Positions 898 to 1,181 of a DNA stretch of 54,398 bases are shown in pieces (position 1 is the first letter of the stretch; the number at the start of each line of letters is the position of its first letter). The notes under the pieces were generated by a model. That model had not been told where the DNA came from. It did not search any database and was given only the letters and a program-made list of their open reading frames with translations. The position numbers and the translations under genes were made by a program. The stretch comes from Gemmatimonadota bacterium (lineage in GTDB: Bacteria > Latescibacterota > UBA2968): contig VXRD01000143.1 in the NCBI GenBank assembly GCA_009838845.1, positions 1 through 54,398 of the forward strand, written 5' to 3'.

Positions 898-926
898 TTG
901 ACTTTCGCTTTTGCATGGGCTATATT
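898..926 (+). promoter_or_regulatory. Sigma-70-type promoter of the structured RNA unit
   Basis: TTGACT (898-903) and TATATT (921-926) are separated by exactly 17 nt, a near-consensus housekeeping promoter. Transcription would start near 933, just before the small ORF and its very strong ribosome-binding site. The nearest downstream full-size gene (rplM) is cut off by a terminator. Confidence 0.7.
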
Positions 927-939
927 GGAACCACACAAG

Positions 940-952
940 AAAGGAGGTGGTC
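940..952 (+). promoter_or_regulatory. Extended Shine-Dalgarno sequence of the micro-ORF
   Basis: AAAGGAGGTGGTC can pair with 13 consecutive bases of the usual 16S rRNA 3' end, with one G-U pair at 950. It ends 2 nt before ATG 955; the GGAGG core ends 7 nt before it, which is ideal spacing. It is longer than the ribosome-binding sites of the ribosomal protein genes downstream. Confidence 0.55.
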
Positions 953-954
953 GA

Positions 955-990
955 ATGAGTGAAATGACCAGTGGAGGTGGCTGTCGTTAG
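955..990 (+). CDS. 11-codon micro-ORF (MSEMTSGGGCR)
   Basis: An 11-residue ORF ending GGGCR starts with ATG behind an almost full anti-SD match (940-952). Its last four codons and stop codon lie in the 5' strands of the long hairpin at 976-1059, so ribosome occupancy would open that helix. The stop TAG is followed directly by GTG 991, opening a second 8-codon frame ending at 1017. It may be a leader peptide, a ribosome-sensing element or a real tiny peptide. The evidence is the ribosome-binding site and the placement only; nothing indicates the peptide's function. Confidence 0.35.
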   Translation: MSEMTSGGGCR

Positions 991-1128
991 GTGCGCCTCT
1001 GCCAGGAGCGGGAATAGCATCTCGAATGGTAGCGCACCTGGCAATCCAAGACAGCCATCGAGCGGTTTGTTATCTGCCACATTGGCGATTTTTTGACAAT
1101 CGCGAGGCAGAAACTTCCGTCAGACGAT

Positions 1129-1181
1129 GCGCCGCACGGAGATGGGTCGGTTTTCCGACACCCGACGTGTGGCGCTTTTTT
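1129..1181 (+). terminator. Rho-independent terminator
   Basis: GCGCCGCACG (1129-1138) pairs with CGTGTGGCGC (1166-1175), one G-U, followed by six T. A second helix, GTCGG TTTT CCGAC (1146-1159), stacks inside. TCCGT (1116-1120) could pair with ACGGA (1136-1140) and compete with the 5' arm, a weak antiterminator-like alternative. Confidence 0.75.

Follow-up and report, generated by a model that had tools for sequence, protein, structure and literature searches.

The window, a stretch of 54,398 nt from a Latescibacterota genome, carries near its start a gene for an RNA of about 249 nt (933-1181, forward strand, as are all window features given below), with its 5′ end placed from promoter spacing and its 3′ end from the terminator. 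The promoter, TTGACT-17-TATATT (898-926), is one of three promoter consensus matches in the region, and its hexamers are conserved across the Latescibacterota alignment. The RNA ends in an intrinsic terminator (1129-1181) comprised of a helix (1129-1137/1167-1175) followed by TTTTTT (1176-1181), with double changes in four of the nine helix pairs; this element was overlooked by a simple terminator scan, its inner loop being too long. An earlier note on this DNA had proposed both elements and had held that the terminator separates the RNA from rplM. These claims stand, as do all the other features that it described within 898-1181, each of which is present where the note placed it.

The terminator is followed by a promoter-like element for rplM, TTGACA-16-TACCTT (1195-1222), recognized from consensus only and bearing a weak -10, and then by the rplM coding region (1298-1729), a neighbor outside the RNA. 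The TTGACA between terminator and rplM is present in most relatives. In most genomes of the same family (f1) and of a second family of the order (f2), rplM is the next gene after the RNA, neighbor genes here and elsewhere having been named by eye from translations. Two members of the same family (L072 and L081) carry other genes downstream of the RNA, planctomycete copies of the L062/L066 type lie upstream of prfB, and the remaining copies adjoin unrelated genes, with the downstream gene differing between phyla and even within phyla. Given these varied neighbors and the TTGACA element, the RNA is most likely an independent gene, and the changing downstream gene makes action in trans likely. 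A leader of rplM, which would occupy a constant place before that gene and share one transcript with it, was rejected in view of the covarying terminator in between, the separate promoter-like element and the relatives without rplM behind the RNA. An attenuator with a leader peptide does not fit either, since the peptide frame is not conserved and there is no constant downstream gene.

Immediately upstream of the RNA lies a gene for a YWTD-repeat protein (53-877), and other genera of the order have in that place what looks like a gene for a peptide-transport permease. Further along the window, the stretch between rpsI and rpsB (2144-2231) gives a weak match to the Rfam family t44 (22 bits, cut-off 44, E 0.35). 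In other bacteria t44 is an RNA upstream of rpsB, a place that this stretch matches.

Two Shine-Dalgarno sequences and a short reading frame

The first Shine-Dalgarno sequence (SD1; 938-952), AGAAAGGAGGTGGTC, forms 15 contiguous pairs, one of them G.U, with the 16S rRNA 3′ end of the same genome, which reads ...GGCTGGATCACCTCCTTTCT (the exact mature end is presumed). The earlier note had claimed this complement over 13 nt, with AAAGGAGGTGGTC as the SD sequence, and the pairing is stronger than it supposed. The 15-position run is the longest pairing to the 16S tail in the 54-kb window; first-order Markov windows reach runs of 10-14, so that run length alone is weak evidence. In planctomycete and acidimicrobial copies SD1 is extended by C or CA, giving 16-17 pairs against the same tail. 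A guide for 16S 3′ maturation is unsupported, as the complementarity ends at the presumed mature 16S end.

Behind SD1 lies the 11-codon open reading frame (ORF) that had been described as ending in GGGCR and a stop (955-990, MSEMTSGGGCR, stop TAG at 988-990). Within it, 7 nt before the stop codon, stands a second GGAGGTGG (SD2; 973-980), which the earlier note had overlooked and on which the whole architecture seems to hinge. SD2 is found also in Planctomycetota and Actinomycetota, and in Latescibacterota it is invariant apart from a G to A change in L011. Predicted duplex energies over 83 copies run from -24 to -30 kcal/mol for SD1 and from -10 to -16 kcal/mol for SD2. The distance from GAGGTGG to the stop is 6-10 nt in 82 distinct copies (8 nt in 37 and 7 nt in 30), mostly from Latescibacterota, Planctomycetota and Actinomycetota, which were gathered by a script allowing 3-13 nt to the stop and for the most part through a pattern already requiring GAGGTGG. 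The sole bias-free set comes from a search with the extended SD and start codon only, run over 59 planctomycete and 60 actinomycete genomes. It returned six planctomycete and ten actinomycete sites, and all 16 proved to be copies of the RNA with GAGGTG[GA] before the stop of the short ORF. The motif reads GAGGTGG in each of them except L196 and L197, which have GAGGTGA; this variant can likewise pair with the 16S tail and, in L196, faces UCACC in the helix P1 described below.

The short ORF starts with ATG, GTG or TTG, occasionally with CTG, ATT or ATC, and stops at TAG (45), TGA (25) or TAA (14). Its length of 10-16 codons varies by whole codons, with frame and stop retained. The peptides are alike within each lineage (TSGGGC[RS]; T.EVA.R; SQRGGTA), but across lineages GAGGTGG occurs in each of the three frames, giving GGG(C/S), RGG, RRW or EV(A/V), with two of these frames represented within Actinomycetota. 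The constraint thus acts on the RNA motif rather than on the peptide: the nucleotides of SD2 and their distance to the stop are conserved, with the peptide as a probable by-product.

In E. coli prfB, an internal SD sequence about 3 nt from the shift site drives +1 frameshifting. The window RNA is comparable in that an SD-like sequence inside an ORF would act when the A site of the ribosome contains a stop codon, but its class has a spacing of 6-10 nt, no conserved slippery site and no downstream frame. A programmed frameshift as in prfB or dnaX is ruled out by this spacing and by the absence of a slippery site.

Fold and alternative pairing

The predicted fold of the RNA has an energy of -114.1 kcal/mol against -84.8 kcal/mol in shuffles (z -5.98), none of 200 shuffles being as stable, and RNAalifold on 14 distinct relatives gives -75.5 kcal/mol. 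Over these 14 relatives the 58 helix pairs show 98.0% paired cells, and the compensatory base changes that the earlier note had suggested looking for occur in 16 of them, changed on both sides. The helix covariation score is 0.286 against 0.186 in shuffles (0/500), and controls with slid partners pair at only 31-45%. Together with the promoter and the covarying terminator, these values bear out the description of a stand-alone structured RNA.

The start codon lies in the loop of a small hairpin (948-970; 948-952/966-970, UGGUC/GACCA), which is maintained by G.U changes in L012 and L019 and shows no double changes. Helix P1 pairs the 3′ half of SD2 (976-985) with GACAGCCATC (1050-1059), an internal mimic of the anti-SD sequence bearing compensatory changes across two phyla. 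Helix P2 joins 986-996, which includes the stop codon, to 1032-1042; it is nearly invariant, so that covariation is uninformative and neither supports nor contradicts it. The 3′ hairpin domain (1063-1119) is built from 1063-1065/1117-1119, 1069-1078/1106-1114 and 1085-1088/1100-1103, with 11 pairs changed on both sides, and this domain and the terminator helix show the strongest covariation. P1 and the helix 1073-1078/1106-1111 are present as first described, and the helix then given as 989-996/1032-1039 is in fact longer, namely P2. The last codons of the ORF and its stop do lie in P1 and P2, so translation and folding must compete, as had been pointed out.

In Latescibacterota the 3′ half of SD2 has as its partner a downstream CAGYCAYC; the Actinomycetota mostly have CAGYCACC or CTGYCACC in its place. 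Over these two phyla five of the ten P1 pairs are changed on both sides and covariation reaches 0.301 against 0.183 in shuffles (0/500), in a test whose Actinomycetota sequences were chosen for bulge-free pairing, a choice that favors the helix. Across Planctomycetota P1 pairing is not above chance, and any internal switch would thus be lineage-specific. Other pieces resembling the 16S tail occur elsewhere in the class: GGACCACC, extending up to GGACCACCTCC, is a complement of SD1, reaching p<=0.05 in 18 of 40 copies from Actinomycetota, chiefly Acidimicrobiia, and three planctomycete copies (L121, L122 and L125) carry 3′ of the ORF GGATCACC, which reproduces part of the 16S 3′ end exactly.

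Distribution and kinship with Ms_IGR-5

A search of 60 genomes with 933-1185 recovered the RNA in 15 of 15 genomes of f1 and six of six of f2, with a weak match in one genome of a third family; this distribution was reproduced with a covariance model covering the first 129 nt. The earlier note had made its reading depend on conservation of the helices or ORF in close relatives, and the RNA is indeed present in all 21 genomes of f1 and f2. In a fourth, sister family of the same class (f4; G022-G046) BLAST, pattern and covariance model found it in none of 25 genomes; the RNA is dispensable in some relatives, and in f4 it has been lost or has diverged. Each f1 and f2 genome holds one full copy, as does the genome of the window, so the several copies per genome that the note had thought worth seeking did not appear. 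One relative (G008) carries in addition a 34-nt 5′ fragment comprising SD1 and the start (L031 1435-1475, minus strand), situated between direct repeats and apparently a partial duplicate. The only other extended-SD site in the search of the phylum (L057 1500-1597, from G013) lies upstream of a sigma-factor-like gene, ahead of a short ORF (MTRGQLARKTQVN...) that looks like the truncated start of a regulator.

A GTDB scan with SD1, ATG and GGAGGTGG found the arrangement in Latescibacterota, Planctomycetota and Acidimicrobiia. A looser pattern which, as in that scan, required no stop codon matched 35 of 392 planctomycete and 31 of 296 actinomycete genomes, and the reversed control pattern gave two and three matches. 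A Pseudobdellovibrio copy (L097) has the same motif order in one of 97 genomes of its group and could be a result of transfer or chance. Four further sites (L094, L099, L112 and L155) were judged chance matches within or before ordinary genes, and an origin in phages or viruses was set aside, viral contigs having given no match.

The earlier view that this RNA resembles nothing known does not hold. The Rfam model RF02471 (Ms_IGR-5) matches 933-1082 of the window at 39.5 bits (E 1.3e-6), below its curated cut-off of 45, and a relative, G013, passes that cut-off at 46.6 bits; for comparison, the Nocardia farcinica copy (L029) scores 142.7 bits and L147 84.8 bits. In the other direction, a model built from Latescibacterota only (R1) finds Actinomycetota copies with best E-values of 1.4e-11, 6.4e-10 and 5.9e-9, the Nocardia copy at 1.8e-5 and L147 at 2.2e-4. 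Covariance-model searches of the kind that the note had recommended thus recovered the RNA in f1 and f2 and homologs in Actinomycetota. With matches in both directions, the window RNA is by sequence a homolog of RF02471, though formally under the family threshold. Shared features are the 5′ end (UACAC..GAAAGGAGGUGGUC), SD1, a short ORF with GAGGUGGCUG just before its stop, and the 3′ strand CAGYCAYC. RF02471 has been described only from Actinobacteria, a group to which the genome of the window, a member of Latescibacterota, does not belong; the bases paired in the Rfam structure differ from those paired in the window fold, and the parts of its literature consulted do not mention a double-SD architecture.

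The distance between the RNA and purM, a gene that is Rv0809 in M. tuberculosis, is 2.4 kb in one Actinomycetota genome that resembles the Rfam consensus. The M. tuberculosis sRNA ncRv0810c is reported to be essential or associated with a growth defect (PMC5241402); that it is the same RNA as Ms_IGR-5 is only a lead. Ms_IGR-5 itself is catalogued as an sRNA of Actinobacteria and is expressed in Streptomyces (PMC8079986, PMC8780764) and M. smegmatis (PMC10454040). Ribosome reads were reported on its homologs from M. abscessus and M. smegmatis in a paper that itself cautions that many non-coding RNAs show such reads (PMC4974804). The sections seen of these four papers on Streptomyces, M. smegmatis and M. 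abscessus give no function for it (PMC8079986, PMC8780764, PMC10454040, PMC4974804). An Rfam entry that had lacked an explanation and had been regarded as limited to Actinobacteria is thereby extended to no fewer than three phyla far removed from one another, and its anatomy, in which a tiny frame is bracketed by two ribosome-binding sites, is exact and open to testing.

Capture of ribosomes as a possible function

This anatomy suggests a stand-alone, probably trans-acting RNA homologous to Ms_IGR-5 that captures ribosomes as a "double-SD minigene", a reading to which about an even chance is given. SD1, a near-perfect complement of the 16S tail at the 5′ end of the RNA, would recruit the 30S subunit with very high affinity, and the ribosome would translate the 10-16 codons of the ORF, the peptide being irrelevant, while opening the helices that contain its last codons and stop. 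Once the stop codon occupied the A site, the 6-10 nt between the GAGG core of SD2 and the P-site codon would equal normal initiation spacing, so that SD2 could re-engage the anti-SD sequence and hold the terminating or post-termination ribosome, or the 30S subunit, on the RNA. Such retention is suggested by this initiation-like geometry at the stop and by a precedent, cryo-EM work cited in PMC9955659 in which an SD sequence close to a stop codon reportedly kept mRNA on the ribosome during recycling. When no ribosome is bound, SD2 would pair with an internal anti-SD mimic, as would SD1 in many Actinomycetota, and the supply of ribosomes would thus set whether the RNA is closed on itself or open and occupied by a ribosome. 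The probable result would be an altered pool of free 30S subunits, or a freed 3′ mimic strand acting on other SD sequences.

A "ribosome-responsive RNA", one of two functions considered earlier, is borne out in part: the extended SD and the translated-looking frame fit it, as do the ribosome reads published for Ms_IGR-5 homologs (PMC4974804). Sequence comparison shows the RNA with its fold and frame, both SD sequences and their spacing, and the alternative pairing; the switch itself, like ribosome retention and any physiological role, is what we infer. More tentatively, and with some doubt, the RNAs of Latescibacterota, Actinomycetota and Planctomycetota may form a widespread class that seizes and holds ribosomes, imitating a perfect mRNA start and parking the ribosome, after about a dozen codons, at a stop with a second SD, and that, through its 16S-tail mimics (CAGCCACC, GGACCACC and GGATCACC), senses free 30S subunits. 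Should these RNAs hold ribosomes, they would represent a new RNA-based control of the free ribosome pool beside protein hibernation factors, tmRNA and 6S/Ms1 RNA. They would also bring a natural example to the debate over whether ribosomes are held by internal SD sequences, and the presence of a homolog in laboratory strains such as M. smegmatis makes the idea directly testable.

The likeliest of the alternatives is an ordinary antisense sRNA acting by base pairing, in which GGUGG and CCACC would serve as stem and seed and the ribosome binding and ORF would be incidental or merely stabilizing. The cataloguing of Ms_IGR-5 as an sRNA, the covarying 3′ hairpin domain and a 3′ strand, CAGCCACC(UCC), that could pair with the SD sequences of mRNAs all agree with it. 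It is nonetheless unlikely, as it leaves unexplained the stop fixed 6-10 nt after GAGGTGG, the open ORF with its whole-codon changes in length, the near-complete 16S complement at the 5′ end, and the presence of SD2 in Planctomycetota, whose P1 pairing does not exceed chance. Quite improbable is a translation sensor in which translation of the short ORF decides the formation of the helices, and with them of the 3′ hairpin and terminator, and in which the RNA so reports the status of ribosomes or release factors, possibly through read-through into rplM in the lineage of the window. The placement of the last codons and stop within P1 and P2 suits such a device, as do rplM behind the RNA in most f1 and f2 genomes and prfB behind the planctomycete copies noted above. 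The other copies have unrelated neighbors, L072 and L081 having no rplM, while rplM has a promoter-like element of its own behind the terminator, and the mixture of stop codons (TAG 45, TGA 25, TAA 14) ties the RNA to no single release factor.

A functional micro-peptide (MSEMTSGGGCR and its relatives), the other function considered earlier, would explain the retained frame, the strong SD sequence and the similarity of peptides within lineages, yet its core is dictated by GAGGTGG, which is read in three frames across lineages and in more than one even within a single phylum; such a peptide is very improbable and, on this ground, was ruled out. Weakest is a leader in which SD2 serves a second, translationally coupled gene overlapping the stop, which is hardly credible and was ruled out in spite of initiation-like spacing and a GTG directly after the TAG in Latescibacterota, the second frame not being conserved: 57 of 82 copies have no ATG, GTG or TTG near the stop, the frame is otherwise mostly short and erratic in length, and a terminator or unrelated gene comes next. 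In the other 25 copies, of which Latescibacterota contribute 15, a start codon does occur near the stop, and re-initiation could conceivably take place there.

Among known systems, the proposed ribosome-capturing RNA is comparable to minigenes and mini-ORF leaders such as the axe-txe minigene, in which a very short ORF with an SD sequence likewise takes effect through ribosome binding and not through a protein (PMC8708949). These act in cis on a downstream gene, whereas the window RNA ends in a terminator, is followed by no constant gene and carries a second SD at its stop. The alphaproteobacterial sRNA CC2171 (RF01867) is alike in its near-perfect extended SD (AAAGGAGGUGAUCC), short ORF starting with GTG and compact terminator. 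Its model has no match in the window and reaches 32.7 bits on planctomycete L062 and 37.2 bits on L113, with a cut-off of 75. Two alphaproteobacterial copies (L169 and L170) have 24-26 codons and, unlike the window RNA, lack a second SD before the stop, for which reason CC2171 was rejected as a member of the same family. In these copies the RNA lies at about 2501-2680 (L169) and 2501-2670 (L170), includes a short ORF (MSHC...) as well as a perfect extended SD, and is possibly a distant analogue.
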